NCBI GenBank assembly: GCA_030581615.1
Contig: JAKTTT010000023.1
Span: 1 to 64,000 of the forward strand
DNA: 64,000 nt
Reading direction: 5' to 3'
Origin: Alloascoidea africana
Taxonomy: Eukaryota > Ascomycota > Alloascoideomycetes > Alloascoideales > Alloascoideaceae
Made by a program: the position numbers and the translations under genes. Positions within the stretch are counted from its first letter, which is position 1, and each line of letters starts with the position of its first letter. Positions 38,743 to 60,719 of the stretch are shown here, piece by piece. The notes beneath the pieces are model-generated. The model saw only the letters and a list, made by a program, of their open reading frames with translations, was not told the DNA's origin and made no database searches.

Positions 38743-41700
38743 TCAACTTGTAGAATTTTCATCAACTTTTCTTAAGAATCCAGCGACTCGCCCAATATCA
38801 ACTTCATCAGGATCGCTTTCGACAGCTTGTACCAAACCTTCCAGCAGTGAATCAACTCTGTCTTCTTGCACGCCTGTGCAAAGAGCAACCACTTTTCTAA
38901 ACTTTTGTTCCAGATTTCGACTCTTATTTCTCAGTTCCACGGCCAATTGTTGAAAGTTGGCCTGGTTCTTCTTGTAAGCCTCGATTCTTGCTTTCAAGAT
39001 AACCACTGGTGGCAGCAGATCCGGAGGGATAGAATCTGACTGGGCCAATATTTCCTTTTCCGTCCTGCCTTCTTCTAACAGCTTCAGAACAGGCCAGACT
39101 CGGAATGGCTCATCGGCATCAAAGTCGCCATCAAATTTCTGTCCATGACCAAAACTTGCTGTTTGTTGTTTAAATCTGCTATCTTCTTCAGCAATTGCCC
39201 TTTCCAAATTCTGTCCTCTCTGTCTTAGTTCCGTAAGCTTGCTCGTTAGAGACTTTAGATGATCAAGCTTACGTCTAGAGTCTGACAACTTTACTGTTGA
39301 ATCCCGTAATTGGCCGTGTATGTTATCAATCAACTTTTGCTTTACTTGCATTTCTTCTTTAAAGTCCTTATCCAGCCCCTGCAACAAGGTCGTTACTGTG
39401 CTAAGCGTAGTGCCCGACTGTTGGGCAGCTAAACGGTCAGGAGAAGCTGAAGGAAACCCCAGAGGTTTACTACTACTGGTAGGGGCCGTAACTCTATCTC
39501 CAGAAGGTGCTCCAGATGATAACTCTGACCCGTTGAGCATAATACCAAAATCCAAAGGTCGAAGTCCAGCTCTATTCGGGATACTTGGGTCAGCTCCAAC
39601 ATCAAGAAGTTGCTGAACAATAGCCTTGTTCCCTATTCGGGCAGCAATATTCAAACAAGTATCACCATTTCTGTCTTGAGCATTGACAACTTCGTTCATA
39701 AACCTGCCCAAGCCAATTGCATCCTTCTTCAAAAAGGAACCTTTTCTGACTATCCATTCCAATAGACATTCAAGGTAGTAACGACTTGCACTACTTCGAC
39801 CACGTACGCCTGCCGTCAGAGCTATGTGATGCAGTACAGTTCTTCCTTGTTTATCCAAGATAGTAATACAGTGATAGAGCAGGTCCAATAGTTCTGGAAA
39901 GCATCCATGGTCGTAATTATTGGTAACAAGTGTTGCTCTGACAAGCGCTGTTTCTCCATTGTCATTCACACGAATTCTGTTGCAACCATTCTCAATTAAA
40001 TCCTTGACCAAAGGTAATCGAGCTAGTGCCGCGGCCCAGTGCAATGGAGTGTGTGCAGAATCGTCTATTGGTATATTGAAATTTATGGTCTTGATCGTAT
40101 CCTCATTTCCAAAAATGTCAAGCAGAGTGCTTCCAGGGTTTCCTAAGAATATTTGCGTAATCATCTCAGTGGATTGTTCGAATTCAGGAATTTCGTTCTT
40201 ATCTAGAGGAGGGATTCCAAATGGTTGATTTGGATTTTCGATTTCCTGTTCAAAAACCTCATTTAGAATACTATTATCGCCGTTAGAAGGGGAACCAAGT
40301 TCTTGTCCTTGACTAGGAACAGTGCCGTTTGAGGCTTGAGTGGAGCTTCCGGACACTAATCTTCTCCTTTTGATATTCTCTGGCTCCTTTTGATCGTAGA
40401 AAGAACCATTGTTCCGTTTTCCCGAGCCACTATCAAAAGCCGCCAAACTGTTCAAGGCAGCATTCGCGCTAAGACTTAGACTGTTATTTATATTGTTGTT
40501 CCTATCAAGCGCGTATTGGGAAGGATGCTGCTGCTGCTGCTGCTGCTGCTGAGGTTGTTGTTGCTGCTGTTGTTGTTGTTGTTGTTGTTGTTGCTGCTGT
40601 TGTTGCTGTTGCTGAGATCCTCCATAGATTCCACTTCCTCCAGACATGCCCATATCCATCACCGGAAAACTATCCGTTAGGCGTTTTCTTCTGGCAGCCA
40701 TCGCTTGTTCTTTCGTGGGTGTTGGCGTAGAACCACCATTTTCTGACCCGTTGAGATCATAGTGTAATAATGGGGCGAGCAAGTCATACACAGAGTATTG
40801 TCTACACAATTGAATTCCCCGTTGATAAGGGACCCAGGTCCCCTGGTATTTACCATATCCTCCTTGGACCTTCTCAATGTCGCCGGGCAGAATTTCTCTT
40901 TCCAGAATCTTTGTTCGACGAGCTTTATCAACTCCAGCCACTTTTAAAATTTGGGTAGCATTCAGAGAAGAGTCATACATTCTTCTCATAACCGAAACAC
41001 CGTTCACCGTCATTTCGAGTACCCGAACGCTAGAGTATGTGGCCTTGAAATGAAAACCGTTAGATACGAAACTTAATAATCAGTGCCCTAGAAAAGAGAC
41101 TTACGGTATAAATATCGCTCAGATCATTGCGCTGGCTCATTATGAAGCTATGAGGGTTGTTTCTGAAATTGAACGATGCTGGGCCTGGTTGGGACTGTTG
41201 TCCCATGCTCTGGGATGTTTGAGTCTGTGGCTCTGCTTGCGACTGCGTTTGCGGCTGATTTTGCGTCTGTGCCTGAGTGGGTGACTGCGATTGCGAATGC
41301 AATTGGGGCTGAGATTGAGATTGAGAAAGACTTGAAGAGCTAGTCGTGGGGCCCGCGGTAGTGTTTGCCGTGTTTGCTTGGGTGGGTAGAGACATCTGGT
41401 CTGAAGGGATCGAATGGGGAACATTACTGTCCTCTGGCGTGGGGGGATCTTGAAACGAAGAGCCTGCTCTTAACGTGTCCATATTTGAAGGTTTTATCGT
41501 AGTGTCTGGCACTGTGTTGATATCTTTTGCTCTGGGAGCCAGACTTCCATTCGAAGCACCGTTACTAGAATTGGCATCAGCATCCACATCAGTATCAACA
41601 GTCGGTTCCTTATTATTGTCATTCTTCTGTTCTGCACCGGAAACGTAAGCCAGCGAACCATTGTTGCCATCATTCAAAGGGTTGTCTACATCCATTGCCA

Positions 41701-41758
41701 TGTTCACAGAACTTTGATCTTGTTGGTCCTCGGAACCATCTTGGGAAGACTGCATCAT
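38743..41758 (-). CDS. MBP1: Mbp1/Swi4-type APSES transcription factor with ankyrin repeats (one intron)
   Basis: Exon 1 is 41105-41758, the intron is 41044-41104 (61 nt; GTAAGT, branch CTAAC, CAAG acceptor) and exon 2 is 38743-41043, giving 984 aa. The junction joins DIYT to ATYSSVRVLEMTVNG, the start of the APSES/KilA-N DNA-binding domain. It continues [35 protein letters not shown] and KVQGGYGKYQGTWVP. Ahead of it lies an unusual ~215-residue Ser/Gln-rich extension; Saccharomyces Mbp1 begins almost directly at the domain. A polyglutamine tract follows (residues ~370-400). Then come ankyrin repeats (TPLHWAAALARLPLVKDLIENG, TALVRATL, TVLHHIAL, TCLNIAARIGNKAIVQQLLD) and a coiled-coil C-terminus that pairs with Swi6-type partners. 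It drives G1/S genes through ACGCGT-type sites. Mbp1 and Swi4 cannot be separated with certainty here. Confidence 0.9.
40528..40614 (-). repeat. CAG/CAA polyglutamine tract in the MBP1-like gene
   Basis: Twenty-nine codons encode 28 glutamines interrupted by one proline. One end is an almost pure CAG run and the rest mixes CAA and CAG. The tract lies between the APSES domain and the ankyrin repeats and should be length-polymorphic. Confidence 0.95.
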
Positions 41759-51956: not shown

Positions 51957-54627
51957 CTACTTTCTGCCCATACTGAATCTGAGGCCGCTCTTGCGCTTCG
52001 GAGCCTCAGGTTTGCCGCTCTGCTCGAAGGTGAACCGGTTGGCGGTGCTGCCGGAGCCAAACGAAGACCCCGAGGGGTTGCGTTCGTGGTAAGCATTGAT
52101 GTCCTCACCATTGGAGTTGGCAGAGTAGACAGACCGGCTTTCAGAGACGCTAGAACTGGTCTCGGAACTGCTGCTTCGGTTATGAAGACAGTGGTGACGA
52201 CTGGCTCGGGATTTGGGTTTCTTGGGGCGGCTGGTGCTTGGGGAATAAGAATATGTCCTGGTGGAGCCCATCTTGCTGATCTTACGGATCAGCCTGTCTG
52301 GCCCTATACTTGATCGCGGACGGCTCCGTGATCCTCGGCGGCGATGATGATGCCGATAGTTGTCATCAGAAGACACGGCCGATGCCAGATTGTCTGTTGG
52401 ATTTGACTGGCGAACAATGTTTTGGCTAATGTCTGAGCCTTGGGAAATGGAATTGGTCGTGGAGGAAGACAATGTGGACCTGGTACTATCCTGTCGGTAG
52501 TGCTCAAATGTCACCACTTGTGGGCTACCATTCCCGATACTGAGACGAGACTTACTCAAGTTCTTGGTGAATCGGCGCTTAATTATAACTGGAGAGAGCG
52601 TTGGCGGCGTTATCAAATACTGGGAGTTGGACCAGCGACCAGTCCATGAATTGCGACCCAAGCTCTGTTTGTGGGAATGGCCAGAGCCAGAAGCTTCACT
52701 CAAGGAGCTCTTGTCTGAAGTCGATCCATGCTTTGAAGATGTTGTCTTTGATGTCCTATTTGCTACAGAAGGGTTGCGGGACGCTCTCTTTATTGAAACG
52801 TGTGCTGCTGCGCTCGGCTGAGGATGATAATCCGATTCGAGGGTACTACTGCTCGAATTGTCCCGAGGAAAGTTTCCAACAGTGGGACTTCGCATTTTCA
52901 TTGATCCTCTTGTTGAATAGGCTTCTACTGCAGAGGTTCCGTTTCCAGCGCCAGTCTCAGGAACGGCCAAAGATTCGTTCTTGACCCTATCAACAAGGTA
53001 GTTTTTCAAAGAATTCTTACGTCTATGCTGAGATGCCTTGGAATTTCCTTCCTTCAAGTACGCTGGAACAGATCCAACCTGATAGATATGTTCATCGCCT
53101 GGTTCTGCACTTCTTCTTTTGGAATTAACAACGCTATTGTAAAGGTTCCTGACAACTTCTTTTGTTTTAGCCCCAGAATCGGTGGAAGATATTGACCCAA
53201 ACACTGGTCTGTGGTCATGCCTGAACTTGGTAGCTATCATGGAGTTACTCTTGGAGCCCTCGGAGCCAGGTACTTCTGTAATAGGCTCCAAGCCTGGGAC
53301 TCCATAAAACAAGTTACTCGGAGGAAAAGAAAGACTGGGGTCTCTGTCGTGTGGGTTGTCGTCGGGTTCTTGAACGTTAAAGTCGTGATCTATGTTTTCC
53401 AATTCACGTTGTTTCTCAATGGCATCCTCAAATTCCTCGTCATTCAAAGTCTTTTCATCGTTTGATTGCTTTTGCCTTCTACGTTTTCTGAAAAACAACC
53501 AGATCATGATGATTCCAGCCATGATGGCCAACACGCCAACTGGAATCCCAATAGACAACTGGTACACTTGAGTCTTTGTTAAACCAGATTCCTTCAAAGA
53601 CTGAGAGTTGCCTGTTTCAATTTGTATTGGTGTGGAGCTTGTTGCCGTGGGTTGAATGCTAGAACTGATAATGGAGGTAGCTGTCACTACATTCGTTTCT
53701 GTATAAACAGCACTAATGTCAATAGAAGTTATGGTATCATCAGTTGTTTGATCTTCCTGTGTTGAACTTTCTTTGGTCGCTTCTGCGGTAGTAACAGTTT
53801 TGTACGAAGCAGTTTTTTGATCTTTTTGAATAGAAGTTGCAGACGTATCAAAGAGCAAAGCAGTTGCTGTTGGTGGCACAATGTCTGAAACAATGTTAAC
53901 TTTGGACAAATCAATGCTAACGCTGGTAGTCCCAGGAAGCTTTGTAGTGCTTGTTTTGTAGACTGTTCTGGGAGTGGTTGCTTGAGAAGTGACTTGATTA
54001 TTTTCCGCAATCGTGGTAGGATTGCTTCTTTCATTATCAAAAGTGCTGGCTGGAGAGATTGTTTCATCCTCTGAGGTTTTGAGTGGACTAGTCTCATCAC
54101 CCTCTGAGTCGTCAAAAGGCATAAATGTCTTTTGAGTAGTTGTTGGATCTAAGGTAGTTGAGGTCTTATACTCAGTAGTTGTATGGATCTTTTTTTCTTC
54201 AGATGTGTCCTCATTGATGTTGGCATTTGTGTCACTTTCTTCTTCAGATGTATCTTCATTGTTGTTGGTAGTGTCACTTTCTCCATCATCCAATTCGGTG
54301 TCTTCATCTGGATAATAAGTTTCAACTTCGGTGAAAACAGCTGTAGATGTGGTCCCTTCATCAGTTGCGGTGAGTATAGTAAGTGTTTTAGTGGGTTCTG
54401 TAGAATAGAAAGTAGCTACAAGTATCTGTAAGTTACTGAAGCCTATATACAATGTATAGTTTTTACTCCATAGACTTACCAATATTAGTCTTTTCGACCA
54501 CGCTTTGGAGATGGGTGATGATATCGCGTTGAGCTATTGCGATGTGATCGTTTTCCTGTGGCTTTCCGGACTGAGATGCTTTTGTTGAAAGATCAAAGGT
54601 TGTGGTAACAGGCGATGCCATTATCAT
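51957..54627 (-). CDS. single-pass Ser/Thr-rich membrane protein, Skg6/Tos2/Tda7-like (one intron)
   Basis: Exon 1 is 54480-54627 and exon 2 is 51957-54415, giving 868 aa from the first ATG; the second ATG, two codons on, is also possible. The 64-nt intron has GTAAGT and a TAG acceptor chosen because it alone keeps the frame (TNI-ATFYSTEPTK). The first ~335 residues are Ser/Thr-rich with acidic repeats (NEDTSEEE-type) and look like a heavily O-glycosylated ectodomain. One membrane helix (~336-359, IGIPVGVLAIMAGIIMIWLFF) with the GIPVGV start typical of Skg6/Axl2-type segments is followed by a basic stop-transfer FRKRRRQK. The ~500-residue cytosolic tail is rich in Ser and basic residues. No classical N-terminal signal peptide is seen, as in Tda7/Skg6-type proteins. 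A Mid2-like wall sensor is an alternative. Confidence 0.65.
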
Positions 54628-57600
54628 TTATGGTCCAAACTTCAACTCTTGAACATATATTAACTTAAAAAAAGTGTTTGAAAAGTGAAATATAATAGAC
54701 GATTTGAACTGAAATAAAGATATTTCTGATTTTGAATAAATCAGAAATTACAAACGAAAGGAAACTAGTCAATAGTCGAGGAACTGAAAATGAGTTGAGT
54801 GGTGAATCGAGACTTCACAAAAAAAAAGTGGGACTTGTGTTGGCAACTATGAGGCGCTCTGCTTGTGCTGAAGTAGTGCTGTGTGTCAGAATATGCCTCT
54901 TGAAGGACAACGGGAATGCCTAATACAAAAATATGTTGTAGAAGTTTTTGCGGTCGAGATGGTCACCGAACTATGGGGAAGTATCACCAAAGAGCTGAAC
55001 AAGTGAATGTAACTTCCTGATAAAAGCAAAGAGAAGAAAGCCAAGAGAGATGGATAGAGTAAAACAAGCAAAACTTAGGAGTCTTCAAAACCAGAATTGA
55101 CAATTGAAAGGGATAAAGCAGTACAATTTAATCCTAAAACCGTCTTGCATGATACCAAGAATACTTGACTGACAGCTGTGCCGCACGTCAAACAAAATCC
55201 TCAGAACAAGTACCTTTTGCTTGTGCAAGTGTTCGGTGTAAGGCGTTTCTGCTACTTTGACACTTTTTTGCTTTGCAAGAAGACTACATGGAGCGAAAAA
55301 AAAACTGCAGGGCATCGAAGAAGTAGTAAAGGGTCCTTGATGGATTTACAAGAAAACCAAGTCTTACATTTACGCAATTCCTTTTTTAAAACAAATGACT
55401 TCTCTAAAAGATAACAGTTTTGGTCTTTCTGATATCAATGAATTCTGGAGTGCTCTAGTAAGCTGGTTTCTCCGGTACAAGTTTTTTGGCGTATTCTACG
55501 TGCATATAGGACAGAAACAGTTAATAAAAAAAGATTTCACGTTAATGTGAAAAATGGTGAAATTGAAAAAGAAATGGGGAATACTATTGTTCAAAAGTAA
55601 AGTAACTCAGTTCTATCTGCAACAATGGAACATAAAACATCTTAACTGGTCAGAGTCCATAGATCGAGCTTACAGCATTTATGCATTGGTTTCACAGCTT
55701 GAAGAATCTTTTTCGATAATCATTAGTTAGCGGTCTGAATAGAGCTCTACATTTATAGCATTGCCTGGTTTCCATAGATCAATGTTCGAGTTTCACATAG
55801 CTATTTGGTCCTTGAAACTGTAAGCACTTGAATTTATTTCTGCAACTCTGAAACCAAACCTTTGGCATAAGAATATTTAATGGGTTGTTAAGCTGTTCTT
55901 GTTTTTAGAATGGTTTGGTTTTCAAGTTGGAAAGCACTGATAGTCAATGAGAGTGTGCATTTCTATTCTTTGGGAACTAGCAACATGATGGTGGAGGCAT
56001 AATGTAACAATGATTCCATTTATGTGGTCATCAGGAATTAGGCAATGACGCCAGTTTAGAGTAAATGAGATTTCTTGAAGTGGCTTTCACGTTCGCAGAG
56101 ATTTGAGAGGGTTCCTGATTAAAGAATGCGTATTTTATATCTTCAGAAGGATGAAGTTGGCCTTTTATTTAAACAGAAATAAAATCCAAGTATGATCGCT
56201 GAATGATTCATACTGATCATGATTGAGATCAATTTAGATATTGTGCTTATAGGATCATTTGTTATCATCTTGGTTCAGCATTTATAAGGTGAAATTCAAA
56301 TCTCATTCGGGTATGATGTAACATTAAGGATCATCAAAGTGTAATCATTCGTTAACTGGTCAGGATATTTTCTGTAATACAATCAGAACATATTTCCAGC
56401 AAAATTCTTCAAGTCAGAAATCATTTTATTGGCTCGAGCTCTCTATTCTGAAGGCCTTTCAACCAAGACCAGTAGCTAATTGGAGTGTTAACGAACTTAT
56501 TCCACAGCAGACTGTGCAAAACTTTTGATTTTTACATAAGATATGAAAAACCGGCAGACCAGCAAAATTAATAATGAACTCGTTGATTTCACCAAACATA
56601 AAAGAACTGAGCACGACTGGGAAAACATGGCCAGTTGAGCGCGTTTTTTGATGCAAAGTTTTCTAATTATACCAACTCTTTTTTTTTAATGAAAATCGTG
56701 ATGATACAAAACATTGAGAACATATTATTAGATTATGATTTAACTGGCAAAAAGATTGAGTCCAAAATTAGATCTTTTCGTTTCTCTCACACAGCTCAAA
56801 GAGTTTTTCGTTTCTGATTGTAATGTAAGCTTAATAAACTAAATCAAGCCCAGAAAAAAGAATTGGAGTAAGAAAAAAGACAGCCATTTAATTTTGGAAG
56901 GCACTGAAGCTTTTCCTCTTGAAATCTTAAAAATCCTAAATATGGGGATAATGCGAGCGTATCATCTTTTGTATTATAGTCCTATTAATCTAATATGCCC
57001 TTTCATGCTATCTCAGGACTCTTAGTGGGTTGTCATTTTTACGTTGTTACTGGTGACAACAAGAACCAGTTTCGGTGCTGGGTTGTAGCACATCGCTCAA
57101 AGGCTTGTCTCTCCGCTTTAATTCTATTTGTAGATCTACAGTCAGAGAGAAAGTTGATAATGCTTAACAATTGGATAATATTAAAATTCATAACATTACT
57201 ATCTGGCCAAAGGGCAACTTTCGAGTTTCATGATACTGTACACATTAGCTTCTTGCTTTTAGCTTTTTCCGAACCCTTACAATATTATTTTCCATAGATT
57301 TATTGAGTGAGATATGCACTTCTTGAGATCATTGGATTTCGTGTTTCAAAGCTGACAAGAATTGTGTTACGAAAAGAATACACGATCAACGCTACAGCCT
57401 GTTCCTCTCTATACCCTTTAGACTGAAAGTAATCCCTAAATTAAGAGTTACTCTTTGCTATATCCGTTTGTTTTTGACGGTTAGCGAAGCATCTCAATTG
57501 CCTCACAAAGTGATTTGTTCCCATCAGGCCATCTCATGCATATAAGACTGAGTTTCTTGAGCAATCTGGTCTGCAGAGTTATAAATTGGTATTGGAAGGT

Positions 57601-58739
57601 TATTCTTTATTGCAGACAGAATGAGATAGAGCTTGTGTAGAGGCTTTGGTGCGAAAGAGACGCAAGAGCCGGCCCTTTGGGCACCAATCACTAACCATCG
57701 ATAATTTCTCTTTGCTCATTCATCAACAGAGTATAAAATGCTAAATCCAGTTAAAAACAGTAGCATCATTAGCCCATCTATTCCCAGCAGATCAAGGAAC
57801 CCAAGTACACGGTAGATTGCACTTTGTATAGCGCTTCCTGGCATGAGCAGGAGATTGACCATATTCTCAACACTTGAGAGCCTGAAAAAACTCTTCGTGC
57901 ATAGACGTCTAAAGTGATTCAAACTAGATTATTATCTTTCACTAGAGCCAATTTATTCAAATTATTCGCGAGTGTGTCCACCATCCATTCTAGTCTTAAT
58001 GTAGTTCCAGGAACAGAGAAGATCTCAACAGCCTTCCAAATACTGAGCTTTGGATCTCATTAAAGCAAGGATTAATGGACGCTATTATTTGACGGGACGT
58101 ACTATGTGGACGAAGATATTATACTTTAAAGGAAATGGTGAGATTTAGTTGGAGAAAATGGTCCGTTATTATGTGTACTCCGCTCTTATGCGACATGCAT
58201 TAGTGAACTGAACACAATGGGGAAGAATTTTAACGAATGCACAAAAAAATCTATACTTTCATTATCTTTGCTTTTCGTTCCACTTTCTGCTCATTTATTT
58301 ATGCTCCTGTTTTTGCAATTGAAGTAGACGTTTGTGTTTTGGCAATGAATTTAATAGTAATTTGGCAACATAATGAACAACATTCGAAATAAGCTTAATG
58401 CATCTCGTGATAGTGATGGCCTTATATCATGATAATTCAAATAGAACTATTAACTGAATATCGCCACTAGTAAAATCGATGCTTTTGGCTTGCTGACTCG
58501 GAATAAACAGAGATCAAATGAGACCTTCTGTACATATTTTTCCGTTATCGGTTTGCTCCGACTGAAAGGTTTCAGATCCAATTTGCCTAATTTGGAAGCT
58601 CATCGATTTGATACGTCCAATCAGGTGGCTGTAAATGTCAGCACACTGACCCAAGTATAAGGAATAAAAAGACCAAGAATTCTTGTTCTTGTCTTCAATT
58701 TTTCTTCCCGACAAATTTCTCGCAATTTATAAAGCAAAA
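54628..58739. other. 4.1-kb AT-rich gene-free stretch
   Basis: The stretch is AT-rich and has no open frame above about 100 codons and none with a recognisable domain. I found no tRNA, tandem repeat array or mobile element. It lies between the start of the Skg6-like gene (divergent) and the start of the Cys-Pro-repeat gene. It therefore contains both promoters but is far larger than normal promoters here. A centromere, replication origin or long ncRNA cannot be judged from sequence alone. Confidence 0.5.
58578..58621 (+). promoter_or_regulatory. two CCAAT boxes upstream of the Cys-Pro-repeat gene
   Basis: CCAAT occurs at 58578-58582 and 58617-58621 (the latter as CCAATCA), about 160 and 120 bp upstream of the start codon. 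CCAAT is bound by the Hap2/3/5 complex, which regulates respiration and, with HapX-type partners, iron and heme genes in many fungi. Function here is inferred. Confidence 0.3.
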
Positions 58740-60719
58740 ATGTCATCATCAGAAGAACTGGCTTGTGGAGAGGCTTGCACTTGTAAAAGTGAAAAGTCTC
58801 TTTGCTGCTTGAGAAAAAAGGCCTTTGCCAAGATTGCCTTGGTAGAAGATGCCGCTTTGTTGAAAAGTATTTCTAACCTTTTGATCACCAAAATGAACAG
58901 TACTACTGCGCTTGAAGATTTGCTGCAAAAAGTAGAAGATCCAGAGTTTGACAGCATTGTAAACGAGAATCAATCTTCTTTGCTTGGAACTTCAGGATGC
59001 CCTAATAGCGAAAATGATTGCAAAGAGAATCAAGATAGTTGTAAGAAATCGATTTCTTTCGCTGATAATGCTTCTCGATCTTACCATAGATCTATTGGAA
59101 AAGCATCTTGCCCTTATATGAAGGCCAAAACAGCTCGCTGTTCTCCCGAACACAACAAACCATTAAGAAACCACCGAAGCCATCAAAGCGCAGATTTCTC
59201 TTGCTCGAGCTTTTCCTCCGGAGAAGAAGAAACCCAGTCGGAAAAAAGTTGCTGCCGAAAGTCTTCTACTAGTTCACAACACGGCTGCGAATGTCAGACT
59301 GCTTACAATGGAGAAAGGTGCAAATGCAAAGCATTTAATGACGCTTTCAATAGAGAATCACGGGTCCACCCTTCCAACTACGAAAATCCAAAGTGTTCTG
59401 CATTCAATTACAATTCAAAGACAAATAAATTTCAATCTAAACCTTTCAACAACCACTGGAACTCTTATCACAATCACAAGTTTAATTCTCACCATGGTGG
59501 CTTCAACCGTCCCGGATTCTTCAAAGAATTTGGGTACGAGTGGATGGAGCATCACATGCATTATCCTCATATAACCTCTTTCCCTTTTCAAGATAGATGC
59601 TCTTTCCTTCACTGTCCTCATGATCAAAGAGATTGTTACTCAACCCAGAGATGCCCTATGAGATCCTGCCCCGCAATCCACCAATGTCCAGCTTTTTATG
59701 AAAGAGACCAGCAAGGATGCCCTATGAGAAAGCATAAAAGTTTTGAAAATTGTCCAGTTTGGCAGTGTGGCTCTTTTCATGGTCACAGAGAGTGTCCCTT
59801 ATTTGAGTCCAGTTCTCATTCTTCCAATTGCCCGATGAGACCATTCCCAAACGCTGAGAAATGTCCTGTTTTCCATTCATTTGATGAGACTAAGGCTGAA
59901 TGCCCAATGAGATCGTGTCCAGCAACAGAGAAATGCCCTGCTTTCGAATCCAGTTCTCATTCTTTCAAATGTCCTATGAAATTGTACCCAAATGCCGAGA
60001 AATGTCCTGCTTTCCATTCACATGCCGAGACTGAGAATAAATGTCCTATGAGATCTTTCCCAAATGCTGAGAAATGCCCTGCTTTTCATCCAGATTATGA
60101 GGCCAAGGTTGAATGTCCTATGAGATCGTTCCCAAACGCTGAGAAATGTCCTGTTTTCCATTCATTTGATGAGACTAAGGCTGAATGCCCAATGAGATCG
60201 TGTCCAGCAACAGAGAAATGCCCTGCTTTCGAATCCAGTTCTCATTCTTTCAAATGTCCTATGAAATTGTACCCAAATGCCGAGAAATGTCCTGCTTTCC
60301 ATTCACATGCCGAGACAGAGAATAAATGCCCAATGAGATCATGCCCGGCGACTGAGAAGTGCCCTGCTTTCCATTCTCATGATGAGATTATGACTGAATG
60401 TCCTATGAGATCCTGTCCAGCAACAGAAAATTGCCCGGCATTCAAGGATAAGGAAAGCAAAGACAAACTGGTTTTGGATGGTTGTAGTTGTGATTGTGAT
60501 AAAAAGAAAGAACGAGAAAGCACTTCTAAATTTATCCACCCCCCATTTACATCTGGGTCATCGTTGAAGTCAACTTCTGGTTGCCCCTATCCTAAATCGA
60601 AGAGTCGACAGACTGAAGATCAGGAACACGAGACAACGCCAGATTCCAAAGATGAATTGGAAACGGAGATAAACAGGGATGGAGTGCCTAAGAATTCAGC
60701 TGACAGTGACTCGATATAA
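58740..60719 (+). CDS. unrecognised cysteine-rich protein with tandem Cys-Pro (heme-regulatory-motif-like) repeats
   Basis: The protein has 659 residues from the ATG at 58740. I do not recognise the family. Residues 1-60 include C-x3-C-x-C and CC clusters, then helical sequence. Residues ~130-300 hold further CC, CEC and CKC clusters and a His/Asn/Phe-rich section. Residues ~305-570 are at least eight tandem units of 23-25 residues. Their pattern is CPM-[RK]-x-[CFY]-P-[AN]-x-E-K-CP-[AV]-F-[HE], followed by a 9-10-residue spacer. The protein has about 32 Cys-Pro dipeptides, many as KCPAFH or KCPVFH. These resemble the CP heme-regulatory motifs of Hap1, Bach1 and heme oxygenase-2. A CSCDC cluster and an acidic tail follow. 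No signal peptide or membrane segment is seen. A heme-buffering or heme-sensing role, or metallothionein-like metal binding, is inference. It is convergent with the permease. Confidence 0.7.
   Translation: MSSSEELACGEACTCKSEKSLCCLRKKAFAKIALVEDAALLKSISNLLITKMNSTTALEDLLQKVEDPEFDSIVNENQSSLLGTSGCPNSENDCKENQDSCKKSISFADNASRSYHRSIGKASCPYMKAKTARCSPEHNKPLRNHRSHQSADFSCSSFSSGEEETQSEKSCCRKSSTSSQHGCECQTAYNGERCKCKAFNDAFNRESRVHPSNYENPKCSAFNYNSKTNKFQSKPFNNHWNSYHNHKFNSHHGGFNRPGFFKEFGYEWMEHHMHYPHITSFPFQDRCSFLHCPHDQRDCYSTQRCPMRSCPAIHQCPAFYERDQQGCPMRKHKSFENCPVWQCGSFHGHRECPLFESSSHSSNCPMRPFPNAEKCPVFHSFDETKAECPMRSCPATEKCPAFESSSHSFKCPMKLYPNAEKCPAFHSHAETENKCPMRSFPNAEKCPAFHPDYEAKVECPMRSFPNAEKCPVFHSFDETKAECPMRSCPATEKCPAFESSSHSFKCPMKLYPNAEKCPAFHSHAETENKCPMRSCPATEKCPAFHSHDEIMTECPMRSCPATENCPAFKDKESKDKLVLDGCSCDCDKKKERESTSKFIHPPFTSGSSLKSTSGCPYPKSKSRQTEDQEHETTPDSKDELETEINRDGVPKNSADSDSI
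59844..60413 (+). repeat. 285-bp in-frame tandem duplication within the Cys-Pro-repeat gene
   Basis: Segment 59844-60128 is followed directly by 60129-60413. The first ~195 bp of the two are almost base-identical, including silent positions, with one difference seen at 60031/60316. The remainder is diverged or converted from other units. The unit equals 95 codons (four of the 23-25-residue repeats). The near-identity marks a recent expansion. Confidence 0.9.

Follow-up and report, generated by a model that had tools for sequence, protein, structure and literature searches.

A gene at positions 58740-60719 on the forward strand is a real, selected, and unusual gene for a repeat protein that is built largely around Cys-Pro (CP) pairs. 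It lies in a window of 64,000 nucleotides (the whole stretch of DNA that was analyzed) from a budding yeast with a genome of 23.2 Mb in 138 contigs. Judged from the motifs, heme is the leading candidate ligand and a plausible one. The best reading of the protein, which we consider a real possibility somewhat short of an even chance, is that of a multivalent scaffold of thiolates, disordered and located in the cytosol, with heme buffering as its role.

A Cys-Pro-rich protein encoded in a single exon

The reading frame is open for 659 codons from its ATG, occupies a single exon, and shows no sign of an intron. The product contains 54 Cys (8.2%), 35 His, 17 Met, and 40 Phe. An earlier note on this DNA had put the number of CP motifs at about 32; the count is exactly 32, whereas the same residues shuffled 5000 times yielded 4.37 on average and never more than 13. 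The window holds 21 other frames of at least 200 amino acids, 18 of which were compared, with three overlapping or fragmentary ones omitted. Their Cys content ranged from 0 to 2.6%; 17 of the 18 had no CP, and one had two. By hydropathy only, the protein has neither a membrane segment, as the earlier note had stated, nor a strongly hydrophobic signal: the highest Kyte-Doolittle mean over a 19-residue span was 1.34, at residue 32.

The codon adaptation (CAI) of the gene was 0.485, fourth among 19 window frames. Three GAPDH genes and the ribosomal-protein gene at 1594-2364 served as the reference; the latter ranks first in the list but belongs to the reference set. From this codon usage, the gene is therefore likely to be decently expressed. 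A pheromone precursor was considered and rejected, as the protein has only KK and RK sites, no KR, and ends in DSDSI.

Upstream of the gene, a 4.26-kb stretch (54483-58739) contains no frame of at least 200 amino acids and is the second longest gap between the listed window frames. This stretch could serve as a large regulatory region, or an unrecognized gene may lie in it. Elsewhere in the window, the minus strand at 38743-41758 encodes a protein with a long glutamine run, adjoining a second frame at 41060-41758; this may be a cell-cycle factor of the Swi6/Mbp1 type, split by an intron. Among other proteins of this yeast, the complex I subunit NUBM is nearest PDB chain 6gcs_B, from Yarrowia lipolytica, and of three esterase matches the one compared has no close counterpart among solved esterases.

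Anatomy of the repeat

Residues 291-596 (59610..60527, forward strand) contain 29 of the 32 CP pairs, 34 Cys (29 of which belong to CP), and 11 CPM units, mostly 23-24 residues long. The motifs had been described as standing in tandem; this holds for the 29 central ones, while three, at residues 87, 124, and 615, are outliers. In the DNA, TRF detected a period of 72 bp in 8.5 copies and one of 285 bp in 2.0 copies with 91% matches. The TRF array, which is defined by DNA alone, extends from 59835 to 60443 and comprises nine units.

The consensus CPM-x-x-[CFY]-P-x-x-[EH]-[KNQ]-CP-[AV]-F describes 10 of the 11 CPM units; the unit at residue 327 is the misfit. The formula given in the earlier note had E-K in place of [EH]-[KNQ], and fits the same ten units once it is widened at these two positions. 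It had also ended in His or Glu, whereas the residue after the core in the ten fitting units is His in six, Glu in two, Tyr in one, and Lys in one. Each unit consists of a first half, CPM[RK]x[CFY]P, and a second half that in most reads E-K-CP-[AV]-F, mostly with His or Glu next. Within the array, successive CP pairs are mainly 11 and 13 residues apart; units that have a middle CP show spacings of 5, 6, and 12-13. Eight core positions (1, 2, 3, 7, 10, 12, 13, and 15) are constant in all nine array units and read C, P, M, P, E, C, P, and F. The middle Cys is replaced by Phe or Tyr in five of the nine, and its Pro is retained.

Selection and probable exchange among the units

For the selection test we used the seven distinct units of the TRF array, with two exact DNA copies dropped, in 105 pairings. 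Synonymous differences averaged 17.9 per pairing and non-synonymous ones 13.1, with synonymous sites making up 20.4%. The dN/dS in the coding frame was about 0.19 (median p 5e-6, worst of the 105 pairings 0.0018), a value that treats as independent units that are not fully so if gene conversion acts. The two other reading frames of the same DNA, used as a control, gave 1.60 and 1.36. When all nine distinct CPM units were taken, including the misfit at residue 327, the dN/dS was 0.29 (median p 1.4e-5, worst 0.013), and the other two frames gave 1.33 and 1.16. Eight cores chosen by protein pattern pointed in the same direction, but this choice favors synonymous change, and it fixes Cys, Pro, Met, and Phe. 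Across the ten cores, TGC and TGT are used 5:5 at both Cys positions, and three different codons occur at each Pro position. Because the differences are biased toward synonymous change in the coding frame and not in the other frames, the CP pattern has been kept and not merely copied. The repeat is maintained by selection as protein.

The period of 285 bp reflects a tandem duplication of a block of 95 codons: residues 364-458 recur as residues 459-553 (59829..60398, forward strand), the two copies differing at 26 of 285 bases. Codons 369-430 (62 codons) match their counterparts exactly, and the ends of the blocks are divergent. This pattern suggests recent exchange, and with it that the array underwent conversion or unequal exchange; the number of repeats may differ between strains.

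Recent exchange or duplication within an array is typical of structural repeats, and mammalian high-sulphur proteins are structural proteins cross-linked through their cysteines. A protein of this kind, located for instance in spores or the wall, would agree with a sequence that is repetitive, probably disordered, and rich in Cys-Pro. However, the neighbors of the cysteines are constant too (CPM, E-K-CP-[AV]-F), not Cys alone, and the lack of a hydrophobic signal or membrane segment (hydropathy only) also speaks against it. We regard a cross-linked structural role as improbable.

Homology searches

No Pfam family matched the whole protein at E <= 1, and no Pfam model matched the repeat region at E <= 10, a search in which the HMMER filters drop most matches above 0.1. 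The PDB gave no match to the sequence or to the repeat profile. The matches to Pfam (whole protein and three parts) and to the PDB were all at chance level: the first 90 residues reached 0.071 with HEV_ORF1 and 0.11 with an insect allergen repeat, and the whole protein 0.44 with a methyltransferase. The claim that no described family has this repeat has thus stood up in Pfam and in the PDB. Within the same genome, we detected no paralogue with the whole protein, the N-terminal 132 residues, the repeat protein, or a DNA pattern; the CPM DNA pattern occurs at 10 places, all of them within the gene itself.

Six short peptide patterns had no match in viral contigs, and the six pattern matches in prokaryote genomes were not confirmed. 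Among plasmids, 10 records matched, none covering >80% of the query, and two were inspected. The matched frames in these two do contain CP (30 in 192 residues, with SMCPMA repeated, and 6 in 152 residues). Both consist of tandem DNA repeats with a short period, and the genes annotated there run in another frame without CP; both were therefore taken as chance likeness and rejected as relatives. In one of these, at 1501-2076 of the Haliscomenobacter plasmid pHALHY02, an 18-bp tandem repeat encodes SMCPMA when read in the matched frame, and NVSNGV when read as annotated. There is no convincing relative in Pfam, the PDB, the yeast's own genome, or the viral, prokaryote, and plasmid sets; within this scope, which leaves aside other fungal genomes, the gene is at most a candidate orphan. 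The literature matches listed, from a search with subscription journals and preprints outside its scope, included no Cys-Pro tandem-repeat protein.

The same profile searches bear on the possibility that the repeat is a row of degenerate zinc fingers of the CCCH type with RNA as its target. Nab2 and ZC3H14 are CCCH zinc-finger arrays, and the finger pattern is C-x4-15-C-x4-6-C-x3-H. The likeness to arrays of this type consists of the spacing of one core, the unit at residue 530 (C-x4-C-x5-C-x3-H), and of three more loose matches starting at residues 292, 299, and 327, which makes four in the entire protein; C-x10-C-x3-H also occurs at seven places. However, only one of ten cores has all four ligands, with a ligand missing in the other nine, and the other three loose matches are differently spaced. 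With no Pfam model for the repeat region and no PDB match to the repeat profile in the searches above, we consider a zinc-finger array very improbable.

Predicted structure and the regions beside the repeat

The first 100 residues are acidic and include a Cys cluster at residues 9-23 (58764..58808, forward strand, from the translation), with C9, C13xC15, and C22C23. The linker at residues 101-290 (59040..59609, forward strand; pI 9.15) is basic, contains Cys, and is rich in His and Asn. The acidic tail carries the final CP at residue 615; a C-terminal Cys cluster, GCSCDC, lies at residues 581-586 (60480..60497, forward strand). In the whole protein, CxC occurs at residues 13, 183, 194, 582, and 584, CC at residues 22 and 171, and CxxC not at all. 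The earlier note had placed CC and CxC clusters at both ends, which is right for CxC, whereas CC is confined to the two positions named.

AlphaFold2, run on the single sequence, predicted with modest confidence a small helical region at residues 21-81 (58800..58982, forward strand), with helices at 21-33, 38-51, 55-66, and 68-81. The full-length model had a mean pLDDT of 35.9, and only residues 11-70 had block means above 60 (62-78). When the first 90 residues were modeled alone, the mean pLDDT was 55.9, and the block means for residues 11-70 were 59-69. Outside the helical region the model was coil of low confidence; the linker was mostly coil, with a pLDDT of about 27-38. Low pLDDT is no proof of disorder in a single-sequence model made without an alignment; the protein is probably largely disordered, as modeled, and the low-confidence coil prediction would place the CP motifs on an exposed stretch. 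A Foldseek search of the PDB with the N-terminal model returned 15 matches; the best had an E of 2.3, and none reached E <= 0.001.

A helical N-terminus (as predicted) joined to a long coil-like CP region would also suit a redox or regulatory scaffold, in which the CP cysteines would be thiol switches or a signal under heme control, and the helices at the N-terminus would hold a partner whose fate is controlled. The motifs of HO-2 are described as thiol/disulfide switches in work cited by PMC8808069. However, 32 similar sites seem more than a sensor needs, and Pfam, PDB, and Foldseek searches found no partner or domain match. This role, too, appears improbable to us.

Candidate ligands: heme

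The earlier note had likened the motifs to heme-binding CP motifs, in which a basic or polar residue precedes CP and a hydrophobic residue follows, and this description applies well: 28 of the 32 are polar or charged-C-P-hydrophobic. Six copies read CP[AV]FH, in which the His is four places past the Cys. The nonapeptides around CP are neutral or positive in 26 of 32 cases (positive in 13) and negative in six. Both proportions, 28 of 32 and 26 of 32, speak for heme. According to PMC6356037, negative charge hinders and positive charge helps heme binding of CP nonapeptides, a rule with which the 26 agree, and Pro after Cys turns the following backbone away from the porphyrin; PMC13135908 states that this Pro exposes the thiol. 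HRMs are described in a review as Cys-Pro "and often a distal histidine" (PMC8808069). Phe or Tyr in place of the middle Cys, with the Pro kept, suits a contact with the ring. Judged by sequence features of this kind, the earlier heme interpretation is partly supported.

By motif, the protein is allied with the heme-regulatory CP proteins (Hap1, the heme lyases or HCCS, HO-2, Gis1, and Hhy1), which share Cys-Pro, typically a hydrophobic neighbor, and often a nearby His; the array of 29 motifs sets it apart. In those proteins, which are enzymes or regulators, a folded domain is accompanied by few motifs, whereas here 29 motifs form an array with no recognized domain. Hap1 is reported to have a cluster of six CP plus one (PMC5758875). 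Pfam at E <= 1 gave no Zn2Cys6 DNA-binding domain of the Hap1 type anywhere in the protein, and Cyto_heme_lyase (PF01265) is absent from it, with its genome matches on other contigs (C5 and C41). Plasmodium falciparum HRP2 is a repeat protein that binds heme, and its repeat peptides hold several hemes according to PMC4232395, so that a multivalent heme holder made of repeats has a precedent. The repeats of HRP2 are based on His (Ala-His-His), and we claim no relation in sequence.

A genome search for the pattern CP[VIM]DH gave 10 places, and the reversed pattern gave one. Two heme-lyase loci contain four of the 10; the remaining six fall in frames only 21-54 codons long. The locus C5:155191-155995 has KCPVDHS and VCPVDHT near the N-terminus. 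The locus C41:167888-168781 has TCPIDHT and VCPVDHS near its N-terminus, and the match there crosses two stop codons, perhaps an intron. KCPVFHS and KCPAFHS of the repeat resemble the CP[VI]DH motifs of the heme lyases, KCPVDHS and VCPVDHS among them. The looser pattern CP-x-F-H has 82 places in the genome, six of them in the CP-repeat gene, against 36 for a control; it is common by chance, and a single such motif therefore means little. Some yeast CFEM proteins take up heme, and seven CFEM-domain matches in the genome are above the Pfam cut-off. Together with two heme-oxygenase matches above the cut-off (C1:92598-93266 and C67:34684-35349), they were counted for the heme reading. Neither heme-oxygenase frame contains Cys-Pro, which counts against it.

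Other observations also weigh against heme. The six-motif cluster of Hap1 is reported to bind heme strongly and to have no role in regulation (PMC5758875), and the CP motifs of yeast heme lyase were reported unnecessary (PMC3884852), whereas an older study cited in PMC4158909 held them to be important. In S. pombe Hhy1, one of two CP is described as dispensable, and loss of CPC made binding 7.4-fold weaker (PMC13135908); HO-2 with its CP cysteines mutated still reduces labile heme, according to PMC8808069. As peptides, CP motifs do bind heme, yet published ones often prove dispensable, and they predict function poorly. In the repeat protein, Ala directly follows CP in 13 of 32 motifs, which would make a weak contact, and only 13 nonapeptides are positive and six are negative. 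The first CP is invariably followed by Met, although other hydrophobic residues should serve. The upstream 1 kb has no ATCWGATAA and no Hap1-type site; it has three CCAAT and five HGATAR, numbers that say little given averages of 2.53 and 3.38 per kb in the intergenic parts of the window.

Candidate ligands: copper or zinc

The invariant Met, the CxC clusters, and the His would be equally suited to copper or zinc. A metal buffer, which the earlier note had offered as the alternative, is a close rival of the heme buffer. Such a protein, like a metallothionein, would bind Cu(I) or Zn(II) through thiolates, the constant Met, and His at many weakly ordered sites, the CxC and CC clusters being the tightest. 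Its 54 Cys, 35 His, and 17 Met, the five CxC and two CC, and the Met after the first CP in all nine array units are consistent with this role. Apo-metallothioneins are coil-like, as the protein is predicted to be; it resembles metallothioneins in being Cys-rich, in its CxC and CC clusters, and in having no other recognized domain. However, metallothioneins have a very high Cys fraction in CxC, CC, and CxxC spacing, far above 8.2%, whereas this protein is much larger, is rich in Phe (40), and has five CxC, two CC, and no CxxC against 32 CP. The cysteines of the repeat region belong mostly to CP (29 of 34), and the middle one gives way to Phe or Tyr in five of nine array units. In the upstream 1 kb we found no Ace1-, MRE-, or zinc-type site, and one Mac1-like TTTGCTC. 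On balance, a metal buffer seems rather unlikely.

A proposed multivalent heme buffer

The heme buffer that we prefer would consist of a flexible chain with many similar, exposed thiolate sites in the tandem CP repeat. Ferric heme would be held reversibly, most likely one per CP or per CPM...CP[AV]FH unit, and a nearby His, Phe/Tyr, or Met may serve as the second ligand or contact the ring. The His four places past the Cys in the six copies, or a neighboring Phe, could provide this second contact. Many weak and similar sites would give a high-capacity store with fast exchange, and as a working role the protein would be a multivalent heme buffer or a reservoir for hand-over, presumably in the cytosol. 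The N-terminal helices may dock it to a partner. A stronger version, a dedicated cytosolic heme sponge that holds ten to thirty hemes and sets the free-heme level of the cell, we consider unlikely; to our knowledge, no yeast protein has been described with the role of a heme sponge alone.

The proteins that buffer labile heme seem to have been identified only in part. With many similar CP sites in one natural array, it would be possible to measure stoichiometry, affinity, and release, and the effect of gene loss would be directly readable. If the ligand is copper or zinc, the protein would represent an uncharacterized type of metal-holding repeat.
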